This document shows, piece by piece, positions 21,788-32,021 of a stretch of DNA of 32,262 nt. The position numbers and the translations under genes were made by a program. The stretch spans positions 1 to 32,262 of the forward strand of contig JAIOSM010000502.1 in NCBI GenBank assembly GCA_021107575.1. The letters are read 5' to 3'. The notes under the pieces were generated by a model that saw nothing but the letters and a program-made list of their open reading frames with translations, was not told where the DNA came from and did not search any database. The DNA comes from Desulfobacteraceae bacterium. Its GTDB lineage: Bacteria > Desulfobacterota > Desulfobacteria > Desulfobacterales > Desulfobacteraceae. The stretch's first letter is position 1; the number at the start of each line of letters is the position of its first letter.

Positions 21788-22573
21788 ATGGAAATGTATT
21801 TAGAGCAATTACTATTATTCCTGATTTTTGCATTTGGAGCATCTTTAGGCAGCTTTTACAATGTATGTATTTATAGGATCCCTAAAAAAATATCAATTGT
21901 CACACCGGGCTCGTCTTGTCCTTTTTGTAAAAAGAAAATCCCTTTCTATTTAAATATCCCGGTTTTCAGCTATTTTGTTCTGCAAGGAAAATGCAAATAC
22001 TGTAAGCACCCTTTTTCTCCAAGATATCCAATTGTTGAAGCATTAACAGGATTAATCTTACTCGCCCTGTATATAAAATTTGGTTATTCCATAACAACAA
22101 TTTTCTGGTTTGTTTTTATTTCAGTATTAATTATCATTTCTTTTATTGATATTGACTATCAAATCATACCTGATATCTTTTCCTTACCCGGGATTTTTAT
22201 TTTTGCCACAGCTCCTTTATTTGTACCGGAAATAAGTTTTATGGATTCTGTTTTTGGGATTATGCTCGGAGGCGGAAGTCTGTACCTTATCGCCTTGACA
22301 TATTACATGCTGAAAAAAACGGAGGGCATGGGAGGCTGCGACATTAAACTTCTTGCAATGATCGGTGCAGCAATCGGATGGAAAGGTGTAATTGTTACGA
22401 TTTTCATTGGCTCTCTCGCAGGAACAATCGCTGGGATTATAATAATGATCTCTTCAAAAATTATAGATATAAAACTAAAAATTCCATTTGGTCCATACCT
22501 CTCTATTGGAGCCGTCATTTATATATTCTTTGGCCAAGCTCTTATTAGGTGGTATTTTGCGACAGCGCTTTAA
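21788..22573 (+). CDS. pilD: prepilin peptidase (type IV leader peptidase/N-methyltransferase)
   Basis: GASLGSFYNVCIYRIPKK, CPFC/CKYC motifs, FIDIDYQIIPD and GMGGCDIKLLAMIGAAIGWKG. Confidence 0.95.
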   Translation: MEMYLEQLLLFLIFAFGASLGSFYNVCIYRIPKKISIVTPGSSCPFCKKKIPFYLNIPVFSYFVLQGKCKYCKHPFSPRYPIVEALTGLILLALYIKFGYSITTIFWFVFISVLIIISFIDIDYQIIPDIFSLPGIFIFATAPLFVPEISFMDSVFGIMLGGGSLYLIALTYYMLKKTEGMGGCDIKLLAMIGAAIGWKGVIVTIFIGSLAGTIAGIIIMISSKIIDIKLKIPFGPYLSIGAVIYIFFGQALIRWYFATAL

Positions 22574-22576
22574 TCT

Positions 22577-23044
22577 TTACGATTCCTTAACAGCCATTTC
22601 TATTAAAAACCGGCCTTTTGTTGTTTCAAAAGGTATTGCCAGGACATATTCTGCACCGTCAATATGATCAATCACATGATCCTTACCTGATATCACCTCA
22701 GAAAGTTTAATTTTCACCTTCTTACCAAGCTCAGTTATTTTTGTAGTCGCATGGCCTGCGATCATATTGCTTATTTCTCCGACAGCATCGTCAATTTCTT
22801 CATTCATTTCTGTCATTTCTTCTCCAAACATTGCAGAAACAACTCCAAGAATACTTTTTCTATAAAAAATAATAGCAACGGAAGCTGAGATGTCACCATC
22901 CATAATAAGCATGCCTGATATGTCTCCTGAAGAGATTGTGTTTTTTTTTATAAATATTGGCTCTGGTTTCACCTTAACTGCAGCTGTAGTATCAAGAATG
23001 TATAAAGCCCCTTCAATAAAGGGGTTCACCAATGACGCATCCAT
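22577..23044 (-). CDS. cheX: chemotaxis protein CheX (CheC-like phosphatase)
   Basis: VNPFIEGALYILDT...SGDISGMLIMDGD...EEIDDAVGEISNMIAGHATTKI. Confidence 0.9.
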   Translation of the reverse strand: MDASLVNPFIEGALYILDTTAAVKVKPEPIFIKKNTISSGDISGMLIMDGDISASVAIIFYRKSILGVVSAMFGEEMTEMNEEIDDAVGEISNMIAGHATTKITELGKKVKIKLSEVISGKDHVIDHIDGAEYVLAIPFETTKGRFLIEMAVKES

Positions 23045-23127
23045 AACCTTCTCCTTTCTTTTCTTTCCATTTTAAGGGTTTGGCAAGGTTTTAGCAACTT
23101 TTTTACAAAAAAAATTGGGATAAACAC

Positions 23128-23156
23128 TTGACACGCGCTCCACAACCGCGTAACGT
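23128..23156 (+). promoter_or_regulatory. candidate sigma70-type promoter of the HU gene
   Basis: TTGACA (23128-23133), 17-nt spacer, TAACGT (23151-23156). Confidence 0.4.
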
Positions 23157-23241
23157 ACGTTTAATGCTTGTAAGGAGAACTAATTGGTAAGTTGAATTCA
23201 ACATGAGTTTAACATGCAAACCGTAAAAAAGGAGTGATAAG

Positions 23242-23510
23242 ATGAACAAAGGCGATCTAATTAACAAGGTTTCTGAGGTACTTAACAGCAAAAAAGAAGC
23301 TCATGCAGCAGTAGATTGCATGATTGCAGCAATTACAGAAGCTCTTTCCAACAACGATTCTGTAACTCTAGTTGGGTTTGGTACATTTAAGACTGCTGAC
23401 AGAAAAGCAAGAAAGGGAAGAACCCACAGACTGGTAAAGAAATTGACATTCCTGCCAGAACCGTCCCCAAATTTGTTCCAGGAAAAGCCTTAAAAGATGC
23501 AGTAAAATAA
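23242..23510 (+). CDS. HU-family DNA-binding protein, apparent -1 frameshift near 23412-23421
   Basis: Frame 0 encodes [59 protein letters not shown]. The -1 frame then encodes [30 protein letters not shown], the canonical HU C-terminus, ending at 23510. Confidence 0.92.
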
Positions 23511-23528
23511 TCATTTTTCAATATTAAG

Positions 23529-23574
23529 CAGGCAATATACTGGATTGTAACAATAGATTGCCTGATTGTTTTTA
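23529..23574 (+). terminator. intrinsic terminator after HU
   Basis: Perfect stem CAGGCAAT (23529-23536) / ATTGCCTG (23557-23564), followed by ATTGTTTTT. Confidence 0.65.
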
Positions 23575-23580
23575 TGGTCT

Positions 23581-24342
23581 ATGGAACTAAAAAAAATATT
23601 TATTCCTTCCGCTGGAGTTGATTTAGTATTTAATCTAAACTCACTCTCTCCTTATGCCAAATCATCAATTATTTACGACATTGATCATGATGAACAAACC
23701 GTCATAGTGGCCCAGCCTTTAAATCCCCTTACAAAAAATTTAGAATACGATGAAATGCATTTAACAACTATTATCAGAGGAGAGAAAGGCAAAATCAGAG
23801 TCGGCATCAAATGTGAACCTGTCAAAATTATAAAGAAATATAAACTTGCAGGCACTAACAGCGTAGATGTCATACAGCTCAGATATTTTCCACCTTTAAT
23901 AGAAACAACTAATATACGCTCTGCATATCGATTGGCCTTAGGCAGTCATTTTTCAATAAATGGTAAAATTATTTATTTAGATCATGAATATATTACTAAA
24001 AAAGATTTTATTTTTTATGATGTTTCGTTTGCAGGCGCCGGACTTATAGCCCCTAAGAGGATCAGCTTAAAAACTAACCCGCTGATCAGAATAAAAAAAC
24101 ACGAAATAATTAAAATAGGGATGATTCTTCAAAAAGAAGGAAAAGATGAGCCATCAAAAATGGAGGCTGTAGCAATTATCCCAGCCAATGCTGAAATACA
24201 TAGAATAAACACTGATTATTCAAAAACACATGTTTTTATAGGCATTAAATTTTTTAATATTTCCTCAGAAAAAGAGGATGCTTTAAATGCATTTATCCAT
24301 GAGGCTCAAGTAGACGGACTTCAGAGATTATCTAATTTTTAG
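23581..24342 (+). CDS. PilZ-domain protein (YcgR-like, putative c-di-GMP effector)
   Basis: RSAYRLALGSHF and DVSFAGAGLIA match PilZ RxxxR and [D/N]xSxxG motifs; ATG at 23581 preferred over the listed TTG at 23566. Confidence 0.75.
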   Translation: MELKKIFIPSAGVDLVFNLNSLSPYAKSSIIYDIDHDEQTVIVAQPLNPLTKNLEYDEMHLTTIIRGEKGKIRVGIKCEPVKIIKKYKLAGTNSVDVIQLRYFPPLIETTNIRSAYRLALGSHFSINGKIIYLDHEYITKKDFIFYDVSFAGAGLIAPKRISLKTNPLIRIKKHEIIKIGMILQKEGKDEPSKMEAVAIIPANAEIHRINTDYSKTHVFIGIKFFNISSEKEDALNAFIHEAQVDGLQRLSNF

Positions 24343-26270: not shown

Positions 26271-26705
26271 CTATAGATCAATGGTTTCAGGCTTCTGAGC
26301 AGCGTGAGGGTGCTGATCACTTGCATAAACAAACAATTTATTATTGAGTTGTCTTCCAAGTTTATTTTTAGGAAGCATTCCTTTAACAGCCTTTTTTACA
26401 AGCTCAGTAGGTTTGCGTTCATGGAGCTCACTAGCTGTCTCTGATTTAATACTGCCAATATAACCTGAGTGTCTATAGTATTGTTTCTTATCCCATTTTT
26501 TTCCAGTGAGGCGTATTTTATCAGCATTAATAACAATCACCCAGTCTCCAGTATCAACATGGGGAGTGAATAAAGGATTATGTTTGCCCCTAATTCTTCG
26601 GGCAACTTCTGAAGCAAGTCTACCTAGGACTTTATCCTCAGCATCAATAACGCACCATTTCTCTTTGTTGTCCGATCTCTTTGCACTATATGTAAATTTG
26701 TTCAA
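26271..26705 (-). CDS. rplM: 50S ribosomal protein L13 (probable TTG start at 26705)
   Basis: TYSAKRSDNKEKWCVIDAEDKVLGRLASEVARRIRGKHNPLFTPHVDTGDWVIVINADKI; AGGAG SD 10 nt upstream of TTG 26705. Confidence 0.95.
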   Translation of the reverse strand: MNKFTYSAKRSDNKEKWCVIDAEDKVLGRLASEVARRIRGKHNPLFTPHVDTGDWVIVINADKIRLTGKKWDKKQYYRHSGYIGSIKSETASELHERKPTELVKKAVKGMLPKNKLGRQLNNKLFVYASDQHPHAAQKPETIDL

Positions 26706-26783
26706 TTTTCTAACGCTCCTGTTCAAATCAAAAAAAATAATTCGATATTATTATTATATTTTCTCCAGTATGTCAAGAAAATT

Positions 26784-27191
26784 CTACAATTCAATCTTTT
26801 TACTCTCTTTCATTTCTTTTTTTGCAAGTCTAATTTTTTCTTTTTCTTTTCCTCTGTCCACCTGACTTGAAGTAGTACATGATACTTCTGCATTCAACAC
26901 ACCGCCATTTTCAACAATCAAATCTTTACATTCTACTTTACCGGAACAACTTCCTGTGGATAGTATTATCAATTCTTTAGAAGCAATTACATCACCATTA
27001 AATTTTCCACCAACAGTCATGCTTGATACAATGGCTGAACTGGAGTCCACTTCTCCATCCTCTGCAATTACAATGACATCTCCTTTAATTTCCCCATTTA
27101 CCTTACCCTTTATTATTAATTTCCCAGTACTGGAAATAGAACCTTCGATTGTAAGCTCTTTATCAATTATTGAAAGGTTTGTCTTATTCAT
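26784..27191 (-). CDS. bactofilin (polymer-forming cytoskeletal protein)
   Basis: TIEGSISSTGKLIIKGKVNGEIKGDVIVIAEDGEVDSSSAIVSSMTVGGKFNGDVIASKELIILSTGSCSGKVECKDLIVENGGVLNAEV, a right-handed beta-helix repeat. Confidence 0.95.
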   Translation of the reverse strand: MNKTNLSIIDKELTIEGSISSTGKLIIKGKVNGEIKGDVIVIAEDGEVDSSSAIVSSMTVGGKFNGDVIASKELIILSTGSCSGKVECKDLIVENGGVLNAEVSCTTSSQVDRGKEKEKIRLAKKEMKESKKIEL

Positions 27192-27233
27192 CTTTATCTC
27201 TCCCCTTGCTTTACAGTCTCTTAAAAAATCAAA

Positions 27234-28721
27234 TTAAAAATCTATGAATAACTTACCAACTTCTTTATCATTTAAGCTTGTAACAATATAATAATGCTTA
27301 TTCTGTTTATTAATTGAATATTTCCTCATTAAAACATTCTTAGCCGTATCAACAAGATAACCTCTATCCTCACCAGTGTTATTCCTACGGTTACCAACAA
27401 AGCCTTTAAAGTTCACAACATACTCAGAGGGGTCAATATTACCGGAAATTAGATCTAGGATAACTAACTTGTCTCCTCTTTTAAGTTTAACATGACTGTA
27501 ATTGTCTACAATACGTATACGCCCGTTAACCTTAAGTTTATACTTAAGCTCTGCTGTTTTTTTAGAATCTGAAACCGACAGCTTGCTTGTTTCTACAACA
27601 TCTTTGGGATGGAAATCAAGAAAAATACTACCGCATGCATAGCAATCTTTCTTTGCAATAATTCTTGTCTCTTCATTAATCACAAATTTCTTTTTCATGT
27701 CGTTATAATCGCTGCCAACTCCTATGATATCAACACTTAATCCTCTTTTATAATTTGCCACAATATCCAGAACCTCGACTATATCACCCCTATTGATCTT
27801 TAAACGCTGCATTGTACCCACCACCACTGGTACAGAATCATTTACTGAAATTATTATATATTGAAGTTCAGGTTTTTTTAAATCAATCCCAGGGGTTTCA
27901 GGAATCACGCCCATCAAATTCATAAATCCGTTAATGGCATAAATATGTTGTTTCACTTTTTGTTCTAAAGGAAGAGTTTTGGCTGATTCAACACCAAAAG
28001 CGGGTATTTTGCATTGATATAAAGCATAATATGTGGCAGACCCTCTTTGTTCTTTATGTTTTGTATCAGATTGAGCTGTCCCATGATTATTAAAATGAAA
28101 AAAATACTCGCTGTTAGTGATATGTTTATTCACTTCTTTAATTACATTGTTGGCCATTGCTTCAAGATCTATTTTTATGCCAAGTTTTTTATCTTCGAAA
28201 AAAGCAGTATCAGCAATTATAGACTGACCAAATCTTTTGGGATTACGCATTGGTCCTTCCCATTTTTCAGAGAAAATGCCTGATCCTTCATGTAAGTTTA
28301 ATAAACAATCACTTTCCTGAATAAGTTTTTTTAGGACTTTCACAACCTTTGTTTCATAATTTCCAGCATCAGCACCTGAGAACTTTCTGTTCATATCCTC
28401 ATTAATTTTTCTTTCGCGTTTTAGAATTGAAGGAAAATTAGCTCTGGGTACGACAATAAGATTCCCTTTTTTTAAAGAAATATCAGCATATCGATCTGCG
28501 GCAAGAAACCCGGCTACCTCGTCTCCTTGTATTCCACCTATGATCATAAGCGTCTTCCCGGGGTCTGTACCATTTACTTTATATACATAAAGTTCATTGT
28601 CCTCACCTTCAAAAAAAACAGTAAAACTCCGTTTTTGAGCAAAGGCACAAAGGCTTGCAATGGACACAAGGTAGAATACACAAAGACAAATAAATATCTT
28701 ATACCTTACTTTTTTTTTCAT
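27234..28721 (-). CDS. M99-family (Csd4/Pgp1-like) peptidoglycan D,L-carboxypeptidase, secreted
   Basis: Signal peptide; Zn-site region GGIQGDEVAG (Gln replacing the canonical His, as in Csd4) and LLNLHEGSG; C-terminal beta-rich domains. Confidence 0.8.
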   Translation of the reverse strand: MKKKVRYKIFICLCVFYLVSIASLCAFAQKRSFTVFFEGEDNELYVYKVNGTDPGKTLMIIGGIQGDEVAGFLAADRYADISLKKGNLIVVPRANFPSILKRERKINEDMNRKFSGADAGNYETKVVKVLKKLIQESDCLLNLHEGSGIFSEKWEGPMRNPKRFGQSIIADTAFFEDKKLGIKIDLEAMANNVIKEVNKHITNSEYFFHFNNHGTAQSDTKHKEQRGSATYYALYQCKIPAFGVESAKTLPLEQKVKQHIYAINGFMNLMGVIPETPGIDLKKPELQYIIISVNDSVPVVVGTMQRLKINRGDIVEVLDIVANYKRGLSVDIIGVGSDYNDMKKKFVINEETRIIAKKDCYACGSIFLDFHPKDVVETSKLSVSDSKKTAELKYKLKVNGRIRIVDNYSHVKLKRGDKLVILDLISGNIDPSEYVVNFKGFVGNRRNNTGEDRGYLVDTAKNVLMRKYSINKQNKHYYIVTSLNDKEVGKLFIDF

Positions 28722-28728
28722 AATTAAG

Positions 28729-29658
28729 TCATTTGTTTATAGATATATTTATTTCTTCATTTAAAATCAATGTATTCTCCTTTCCAAACACCAGAACCAC
28801 TGCTTTAGTATATAATTCAGGATTAGGAATGTTTCTAATTCTAAACTTCACGGGTTTAAAATGAGCTATGGAAAAATACTGTCCTCTGCGCGGTACAGTA
28901 GGGATATTGTTTTCCAACGGAACTGTCGGTACAACCCATTGATTTATCCCAGACCCTTCCTCATAAGATAAAACAACAAATACACGGCCTGAAATATCCC
29001 CTAGTTCGCTTGTAACATTTAATACTCTGAACCCTACAAGAAGATCTTTGCTTAACTCATCTTTTACTATCACAAACCTTTCAATTCCAACTTTCTTAAC
29101 ATTATCAGGTTGAGATTCAGCGGCCGGAGCAATTAATTCAGTAGAGCTCGCCTCCGGGAGCTCCGGAGCAACTGGCTTTGAAAATTTTTGAGGTATTGCT
29201 GCGAGGGCTCGTTTGGGAACCGATTTTGGTCGCTTTTTCGCAATTTTAGCAACCTTACTTTCAATTGTTTTTTTTACATCAGTTTTTACGCCTCCCTCCT
29301 GGTCAATCTTAGATTTTGACTCAGTAAGTGTATCCTCTGATATTACAAGTTTAGCCATGAGATATTCTTTTTCATTGACCAAATCTTTTGTTTTCTTTTC
29401 AGCTATGTTTAAACCCTCGCGCAGACTAAGACTTTCGGCTTTATAATTGGAATATAAGTTATAAAAAGGAATTGTTGTAGCTAACAAAACCAAACTTAAA
29501 ATAAATAAAAATAAAACAAACTTTTTAATCCAGTCTGCAGATTTCATTTTTCCAAAATCATCAACTACTATCAATCTTGTTCCACTTTTTCGTTTAATAC
29601 GGACCGGGTTTGAATATGATTCTATTTCTTTTTCCAGCTCTCGCGATATATCTTCCAT
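28729..29658 (-). CDS. single-pass membrane protein: cytoplasmic N-terminus, TM, coiled coil, Pro/Ala-rich linker, periplasmic beta domain
   Basis: MEDISRELEKEIESYSNPVRIKRKSGTRLIVVDDFGKMKSADWIKK / FVLFLFILSLVLLATTIPFYNLY / coiled coil / VPKRALAAIPQKFSKPVAPELPEASS / FVIVKDELSKDLLVGFRVLN... Confidence 0.75.
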   Translation of the reverse strand: MEDISRELEKEIESYSNPVRIKRKSGTRLIVVDDFGKMKSADWIKKFVLFLFILSLVLLATTIPFYNLYSNYKAESLSLREGLNIAEKKTKDLVNEKEYLMAKLVISEDTLTESKSKIDQEGGVKTDVKKTIESKVAKIAKKRPKSVPKRALAAIPQKFSKPVAPELPEASSTELIAPAAESQPDNVKKVGIERFVIVKDELSKDLLVGFRVLNVTSELGDISGRVFVVLSYEEGSGINQWVVPTVPLENNIPTVPRRGQYFSIAHFKPVKFRIRNIPNPELYTKAVVLVFGKENTLILNEEINISINK

Positions 29659-30935
29659 TCCTTATCCTTATTATTCTCACTAATAAATATTAATGTTTTT
29701 ATGCCTGTTGCGCTAAATCCACTGGATTGATAATCCTGTAAAAAACTAACTACTATATTATTTTTATTATTTTTCACTTTAAAGTTACTTGCAGTAACTT
29801 TTATATAATCATATCTTTTTGCAAGGTCTCTTTTTCTTTGTACCCACTCTTTTTTATCCAATCCGTCTGAAAAAAAATCCTTTGCATAATATAAAGCATA
29901 CTTATCCATATCTTTACTGTTCCAGGCTTTGAGCCAGTCTTTTGTGATATCTCTAATATCTGGCCCTTGTTCTACTCCCTGAACAAGACTATTTGCAGCA
30001 ACTACCAAGGGTGAATAGCTTTTATTTAACTTTTTATCATAATATTGATATGCATCTCCTATTATCTTATAGCTGTTATTCTTTTTTGCTACAAATAACT
30101 TTCTTACGCCAAAATCAATATTCTGCTTTAGAAGTTGAAGCCCCATATTAAAAATAATTACATATATCTCTTTGTGCTTATATATTCCTTCATTCTTTAT
30201 AGTAATAGTAAAAGCCTCTATATCTTTTGCAGTTTTACTCCGAATGCCAAACCACTCTTTCCACCATAATATTTCAGGGAGATAAGAACTATCGTATAGA
30301 TGCAAGTAGTCATGATAGCTGCCCTTATTTATGGCGTTACCCCAGTTTTCAAACCATTTACGTATCATTGTACTCTCTAAAGAGAGTTGGTCTCTAACAG
30401 TCGTGGCCAGAGTATCAACAATTATAACAGGAGTCTTATTTATGGCAATGTATTCAGACAACTTCATTATATTATCATTTTCCATTGCTACGCATCCATT
30501 GGAATCCATGGCCTTTAATACTTTGTTGGTGCCATGGAGCCAAATATTGCTGCCATTTCTGCTGGCAACTCTGTCCATAAAGTTAGGATAATCAGTTGTA
30601 AATGCGTTTTTTCCATAAATAGGGGAAAGATCCTTGTCCTCATATTTGCCTTTAATAAAATAGACTCCTTCCGGAGTCTTCTTATCACCGGATTTCATCT
30701 TAATACCGGGAGCTTCGCCTGTGGAGCAAGAGAACTGAAACCTTTTTATAATTGTATCGCCCACAGAAGAATAAAGAAAAACCTGCTGGCTGCTCTTTTC
30801 AACCAAAACAGCATTACTATTTTCAGGTAAAAGAATTAAAGAATCGGGGATTTTTTCTATAGTATTTGCAAACGTTTTAATATTAAGACAAAAAAAAATA
30901 ATTAATATTAAAATAATTTTGTATTTATGCTGCAC
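29622..30935 (-). CDS. L,D-transpeptidase-fold protein with C-terminal NTF2-like region (Csd6/Pgp2-like)
   Basis: VEKSSQQVFLYSSVG...FSCSTGEAPGIKMKSGDKKTPEGVYFI...IWLHGTNKVLKAMDSNGCVAMEN (HxnSxGC). The tail has NTF2/SnoaL-like segments. Confidence 0.85.
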   Translation of the reverse strand: MQHKYKIILILIIFFCLNIKTFANTIEKIPDSLILLPENSNAVLVEKSSQQVFLYSSVGDTIIKRFQFSCSTGEAPGIKMKSGDKKTPEGVYFIKGKYEDKDLSPIYGKNAFTTDYPNFMDRVASRNGSNIWLHGTNKVLKAMDSNGCVAMENDNIMKLSEYIAINKTPVIIVDTLATTVRDQLSLESTMIRKWFENWGNAINKGSYHDYLHLYDSSYLPEILWWKEWFGIRSKTAKDIEAFTITIKNEGIYKHKEIYVIIFNMGLQLLKQNIDFGVRKLFVAKKNNSYKIIGDAYQYYDKKLNKSYSPLVVAANSLVQGVEQGPDIRDITKDWLKAWNSKDMDKYALYYAKDFFSDGLDKKEWVQRKRDLAKRYDYIKVTASNFKVKNNKNNIVVSFLQDYQSSGFSATGIKTLIFISENNKDKEWKIYRESWKKK

Positions 30936-30986: not shown

Positions 30987-32021
30987 TTAACTCTCAAGAG
31001 TTTTCAAATGTTCATATGTTTTTACAGGAACTTTTCTTCCGCTTGAAGTTCGAATTACCATCCCAATTTTTAACAAATATGGCTCAACAACATCCACTAA
31101 TGTATCAGTCTCTTCCTGAAGCGTTGCCGAAATAGCTTCAATCCCGACAGGGCCGCCTTTATAAAATTCAATAATAGTTCTTAAATAATTTCTATCCAGC
31201 ACAGTAAGACCTGCCCTGTCAATGCCTTCAAGGGCAAGAGCAGCATCAACAATAGCTTGTGTAATTTTACCATCAAATTTTACCTGGGAATAATCCCTCA
31301 CACGTTTTAAAAGTCTGTTTGCAATCCTTGGTGTACCCCGGGATCTTTTTGCAAGTTCTTTTGCTCCTTTATCATCAATTTCAACCTTGAGAATCAATGC
31401 AGATCGTTTAACAATGATAATAAGCTCTTGTACAGAATAAAAATCCAGCGTTCTAAAAATACCAAATCTATCCCGCAGCGGAGATGAAAGCAATCCAACT
31501 CTGGTTGTAGCGCCTATCAGGACAAACTGTTTCAGCTTATATCTGTAACTTCTGGCATGAATACCCTTATCAAAAACAAAATCCACTGCATAATCTTCCA
31601 TTGCTGAATATAGAAATTCTTCAACAATTTTGGGCATTCTGTGGATTTCATCAATAAAAAAAATATCTCCATCTCCTAAACTTGTAAGCATTCCAATAAG
31701 GTCTCCGCCTTTTTCCAAAGCAGGCCCGGAAGTGATTGTTAATCCTTTGTCTATCTCGTTGGCAATAATATGTGAGATTGTGGTTTTCCCAAGCCCTGGA
31801 GGGCCGTGCAATAAGATATGCTCTAACGGCTCATTTCTCATATTTGCAGCTTTAATGGCAATTGTTAAAGTTTCAACGGTATCTTTTTGCCCGACATATT
31901 CTTTAAAACTTTCCGGGCGCAAAGATACAATTTCTGACTCTCTGTCCTGGGGTAGTTGTTTTGCAGAAGATATATTATTGTTATTCTGATCAGAAGAAAA
32001 TGAAATAATACCATCATCCAT
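30987..32021 (-). CDS. ruvB: Holliday junction branch migration DNA helicase RuvB
   Basis: [19 protein letters not shown]...[24 protein letters not shown]...[23 protein letters not shown]. Confidence 0.98.

Follow-up and report, generated by a model that had tools for sequence, protein, structure and literature searches.

A candidate bactofilin-scaffolded peptidoglycan-trimming cassette in a Desulfobacteraceae bacterium

We analyzed a stretch of 32,262 nucleotides (nt) from a Desulfobacteraceae bacterium (assembly GCA_021107575.1, contig JAIOSM010000502.1, positions 1–32,262; hereafter the window), in which four minus-strand open reading frames (ORFs) encode a YkuD-NTF2 protein, a transmembrane (TM) protein, an M99-type metallocarboxypeptidase and a bactofilin. 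Together these genes probably constitute a bactofilin-scaffolded module that would localize the trimming of peptidoglycan stem peptides. The ORF reading of the window reproduces exactly the packing described in an earlier note made from the sequence, namely a 37-nt overlap followed by gaps of 7 and 42 nt; the note's view that the host is not an epsilonproteobacterium is supported as well. The parts are known singly; their combination and the proposed adaptor appear to be undescribed in the literature searched (open-licence papers), in which no bactofilin/Csd6/Csd4 cluster was found for this bacterial group. The helical shape of Helicobacter needs both stem-peptide trimming (Csd4 and Csd6) and the bactofilin CcmA, and the one-sided placement of trimming is an open question; according to the study of the Bdellovibrio enzyme Bd1075, there is no known mechanism by which a protein is directed to a single side wall (PMC8938487). 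A cassette that combines a bactofilin and a candidate linker with two trimming enzymes offers a concrete and testable answer, running from filament through hairpin and adaptor to enzymes, and would extend the partnership of bactofilins and hydrolases past M23 endopeptidases.

The gene order is conserved far beyond chance. The order YkuD–TM–M99–bactofilin recurs in dozens of genomes, and among 47 named loci from Desulfobacterales, Syntrophales and unclassified relatives the bactofilin gene lies directly after the M99 gene in all 41 whose contig continues past M99. Where at least 2.2 kb of upstream sequence is available (40 named loci), the TM gene is found in 39 and the YkuD gene in 35, so the four-gene set is co-conserved, as the earlier note had expected. 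Five loci (L041, L046, L049, L069 and L161) carry the cassette without the YkuD gene next to ruvB, and their genomes encode Cds6_C proteins of comparable length (445–482 residues) elsewhere. The YkuD–TM–M99 core extends more widely than the bactofilin linkage across a phylum sample of 247 genomes, 49 of which contain an M99 protein. A Cds6_C protein is encoded by 37 of 37 genomes with a cassette-type M99 (a set defined from scores) versus 25 of 210 without it (Fisher 1e-27), and a bactofilin by 34 of 37 versus 127 of 210 (Fisher 7e-5), kinship being ignored in both tests. The stretch shared by the YkuD and TM genes (positions 29622–29658, minus strand) is exactly 37 nt long in 22 of the loci tested and 43 nt in nine more; a length so constant would be odd for mere packing and suggests translational coupling.

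The YkuD gene (29622–30935, minus strand, GTG start) encodes 437 residues with Pfam matches to YkuD (70 bits) and Cds6_C (56.5 bits), both above the cutoff, and with an N-terminal hydrophobic segment resembling a signal peptide; the product is predicted to be a periplasmic LD-carboxypeptidase. Among PDB sequences it matches Bd1075 (7o21, E 4.5e-41), Pgp2 (2e-16) and Csd6 (3.6e-16), and a Foldseek search with the AlphaFold2 (AF2) model, which has a mean predicted local distance difference test score (pLDDT) of 88, returned the same group as top matches (Bd1075 at 1.9e-24). The catalytic domain (residues 41–172; 30420..30815, minus strand) contains H134 and C148, which align with the catalytic residues H141 and C156 of Bd1075 (PMC8938487) and are invariant in 35 homologues. 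Two NTF2-like domains follow on the same strand: the first, at about residues 181–297 (30045..30395), is indicated by the AF2 model and by tandem Cds6_C matches in homologues, many of which in this phylum have two such matches within one frame, and the second, at residues 325–435 (29631..29963), is both matched by Cds6_C and modeled. The three solved members of the Csd6/Pgp2/Bd1075 group have a single NTF2-like domain, a layout that is perhaps not defining. With a YkuD domain bearing the catalytic His and Cys and a C-terminal NTF2-like domain, as in Bd1075 (PMC8938487, PDB 7O21), the protein is on sequence grounds an enzyme of this group. The earlier note had called it Csd6/Pgp2-like, which holds for its domains and its best solved relatives, with the amendments that Bd1075 is nearer and that a second NTF2-like domain is present. 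Bd1075 is an LD-carboxypeptidase that generates the curvature of Bdellovibrio, and its NTF2 domain is responsible for placing it on the convex side of the cell (PMC8938487); that of Pgp2 binds peptidoglycan (PMC8038945). The paper on Bd1075 mentions no operon (PMC8938487), whereas the cassette gene has conserved bactofilin, M99 and TM-protein neighbors.

The M99 gene (27234–28721, minus strand) encodes 495 residues, again with an N-terminal hydrophobic segment resembling a signal peptide, and matches Peptidase_M99 (PF17033) with 142.7 bits against a cutoff of 27. Its best solved-structure match is Csd4 (4q6m; 124 bits), in an alignment limited to residues 49–284. Within the catalytic domain (27906..28583, minus strand), Q65, E68 and H144 correspond to the metal ligands Q46, E49 and H128 of Csd4, E245 to the general base E222, and R104 and R112 to the substrate-positioning R86 and R94 (PMC4220969). 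All six residues are invariant in 40 homologues, and the QxxE...H metal motif with the general-base Glu places the protein in the M99 family. Unlike the Csd4/Pgp1 DL-carboxypeptidases of Helicobacter and Campylobacter, it ends in two tandem, diverged repeats (27237..27887, minus strand) that do not align with the C-terminal domains of Csd4; most relatives have three, of which hhalign relates 1 to 3 at 98%, 2 to 3 at 96% and 1 to 2 at just 47%. Full-length Csd4-like proteins are also encoded in the phylum, one of them (L086) matching Csd4 with 346 bits over its whole length, and they stand alone in 16 of 16 neighborhoods. They and the cassette M99 proteins form separate clades (support 0.999, in a tree without Csd4 itself), and three genomes (G008, G014 and G303) hold both types. 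Because of the separate clade, the partial alignment and this coexistence, we regard the cassette protein not as a Csd4 orthologue but, judging from its sequence, as a subfamily apart from Csd4/Pgp1 in which the Csd4 catalytic residues have been kept; the Csd4/Pgp1-like label of the earlier note is therefore apt for the catalytic domain, and orthology is not. A Trp148-to-Tyr/Phe change distinguishes most cassette-type members from stand-alone M99 proteins. A His126-to-Asn change was dropped as a marker, since Asn also occurs in the stand-alone proteins.

The TM protein gene (28729–29658, minus strand, 309 residues) encodes a bitopic protein without a Pfam family above cutoff (DUF3810, at 17.8 bits against a cutoff of 28, was dismissed as a membrane/coil match). 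A profile search of the PDB yielded nothing but coiled-coil noise, and a fold search only generic β-sandwiches with low TM-scores, from which no function was read. The AF2 model comprises, in order, a short hairpin, a long membrane-crossing helix (residues 42–120), a disordered stretch and a β-sandwich. The cytoplasmic β-hairpin, at about residues 24–45 (29524..29589, minus strand), directly precedes the membrane helix and is modeled with strands 30–32 and 38–40, at modest confidence in that stretch; its consensus is WTLLxVGDxGKxxSxxxxK, from which the window protein diverges. The periplasmic immunoglobulin (Ig)-like β-sandwich, at about residues 190–304 (28747..29091, minus strand; pLDDT mostly >90), carries a conserved motif [K/R]xGQxFSIA[R/H]FK.

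A similar element before the membrane helix is found in LmdC-type M23 proteins of the same phylum, many of which adjoin a bactofilin. The N-termini of the two protein types align in register (hhalign probability 82–87%). The hairpin alone scores 12.1, whereas none of 200 column-shuffled profiles exceeds 9.1; when the membrane helix is held fixed, the real score is reached by one of 200 shuffles. In Rhodospirillum and Hyphomonas this cytoplasmic region of LmdC binds, or is recruited to, the bactofilin BacA, and mutations in the Rhodospirillum hairpin abolish or disturb recruitment (PMC10945521). The BacA–LmdC operons of these bacteria likewise pair a bactofilin gene with a bitopic coiled-coil protein in which a cytoplasmic hairpin precedes the membrane helix, and maintain a putative shape module as an operon (PMC10945521). 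LmdC, however, ends in an M23 endopeptidase, whereas the TM protein has no M23 match in Pfam or in its model and ends in an Ig-like β-sandwich, the cassette enzymes being separate and, by prediction, secreted carboxypeptidases. Csd5 of H. pylori, a bitopic protein that binds CcmA (PMC9448923), offers a likeness by layout: both are single-pass proteins with a short cytoplasmic N-terminus and a periplasmic domain, which in Csd5 is a peptidoglycan-binding SH3 domain and in the TM protein a β-sandwich of no recognized family. From the LmdC-like hairpin, the binding of LmdC to BacA and the Csd5 layout, we infer that the TM protein is a putative bactofilin-binding adaptor. The suggestion in the earlier note that it links enzymes and scaffold gains specific support from the resemblance of its hairpin to that of LmdC. 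That it represents a new, dedicated adaptor class, in which an LmdC-type hairpin joined to an Ig-like domain recruits two carboxypeptidases so that a cytoplasmic filament patterns wall trimming, is a more tentative proposal.

Similar-looking hairpins occur outside the cassette. Two ORFs of about 100 residues upstream of bactofilin genes (L178, 3154–3459, and L181, 2276–2578) resemble a docking hairpin and a membrane helix without a peptidase and are possible minimal bactofilin partners. The genome to which the window belongs, G000, also encodes an M23 peptidase with an LmdC-hairpin-like N-terminus (G000:C386:5141-5425, L080), beside which no bactofilin was detected within the 3.3 kb read.

The bactofilin gene (26784–27191, minus strand) encodes 135 residues, of which 7–103 match PF04519 with 69.2 bits against a cutoff of 27.9; Bactofilin, Peptidase_M99, YkuD and Cds6_C all exceed their Pfam cutoffs, which supports the domain assignments of the earlier note. 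It is the only bactofilin detected in genome G000 (one match; assembly 90.85% complete). Relative to the core, the bactofilin gene lies after M99, before the YkuD gene (L138 and L141–L143), after an inserted LmdC-like M23 gene (L134) or elsewhere in the genome. The L134 locus (G150:C93:29500-41500) is a merged cluster of YkuD, TM, M99, LmdC-like M23 endopeptidase and bactofilin genes, with both module types side by side. Where the cassette lacks a bactofilin, the neighborhoods of the bactofilins in those genomes showed no constant partner when ORFs were read by eye, several adjoining ATP-synthase or parA/parB-like genes.

In the mechanism that we propose, the bactofilin would polymerize at the inner membrane, on its cytoplasmic side, and the TM protein would dock onto it by the N-terminal β-hairpin and send its coil and Ig-like domain into the periplasm, where they would position the two secreted carboxypeptidases. 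The YkuD-NTF2 enzyme would trim tetrapeptides to tripeptides and the M99 enzyme tripeptides to dipeptides; with fewer cross-linkable stem peptides locally, wall growth would be biased on one part of the cell, which would then bend or twist. The enzyme classes are assigned with good confidence, since the best solved-structure matches are Csd4 and the Bd1075/Pgp2/Csd6 group, in keeping with the earlier note, and the products would be those expected of such enzymes. For tethering by way of the TM hairpin the support comes from similarity and gene order, contacts among bactofilin, adaptor and enzymes would follow from this arrangement, and an effect on curvature or shape is suggested by analogy with experimentally studied relatives. 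Csd4 homologues with >50% similarity have been described from curved and helical organisms alone (PMC3310797), but this statement covers the Csd4 group, to which the cassette M99 does not belong.

Several observations weigh against this mechanism. The cassette members are known from genes alone, the carriers found being nearly all uncultured. A short hairpin ahead of a membrane helix can arise by convergence, and in L051 and L167 (G058) the YkuD, M99 and bactofilin genes adjoin directly without a TM gene. The Fisher tests take no account of genome relatedness and rest on an M99 set that we defined by score. Several lineages have the core without an adjacent bactofilin, and in G132, G183 and G229 no bactofilin was detected; a bactofilin may thus be dispensable. 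A self-contained module, as put forward in the earlier note, is a tentative reading, the bactofilin gene being placed apart from the core in some parts of the phylum.

Instead of bending the cell, the cassette could serve general wall maintenance, the carboxypeptidases limiting cross-linking or feeding recycling cell-wide and the bactofilin coupling them to elongation or division. The housekeeping genes that flank it (ruvB and rplM–rpsI), the tsaD–ksgA pair directly after M99 in other lineages and the lack of an M99 match in most of the phylum sample, which points to an accessory function that need not be curvature, are compatible with this explanation. We nevertheless consider it unlikely, as the studied relatives Csd4, Pgp1, Csd6, Pgp2 and Bd1075 are all shape determinants (PMC3310797, PMC3310789, PMC4599014, PMC8938487). 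It is improbable that the YkuD enzyme is instead a genuine L,D-transpeptidase or a DpaA-like amidase that detaches outer-membrane proteins: the LdtF_DpaA_YafK match is weak (34 bits against a cutoff of 365) and DpaA is among the Foldseek matches (E 2.6e-7), but Bd1075, Pgp2 and Csd6 score much better by both sequence and fold, and it is to them that NTF2-like domains belong. Slightly less probable again is that the bactofilin organizes a different polar or surface structure, connected with motility, pili or polarity, for which the wall enzymes merely clear space. In favor of this, bactofilins of other bacteria serve purposes other than shape (PMC12448750), and the window also contains a prepilin peptidase and a CheX-like gene (21788–23044). 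These genes, however, do not adjoin the cassette but lie at a distance of about 4–5 kb, and in the examined neighborhoods it was the wall enzymes, not they, that appeared as conserved partners.

On the same strand, ruvB (30987–32021) ends 51 nt upstream of the YkuD gene, and on the downstream side 57 nt separate the bactofilin gene from the start of rplM (26271–26726), with rplM–rpsI spanning 26726–25837; the transcript may therefore be longer than the four genes. Promoter and terminator pattern scans at the cassette gave no decisive transcript boundary, and the adjoining ruvB and ribosomal genes, with which the cassette may be co-transcribed, count as a further point against the proposed mechanism. 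The single transcription unit envisaged in the earlier note agrees with the tight packing, though the unit may be longer. Near the cassette, at positions 21788–24342 of the window, the prepilin peptidase and the CheX-like gene are accompanied by a short ORF resembling HU and by a protein that weakly matches PilZ.

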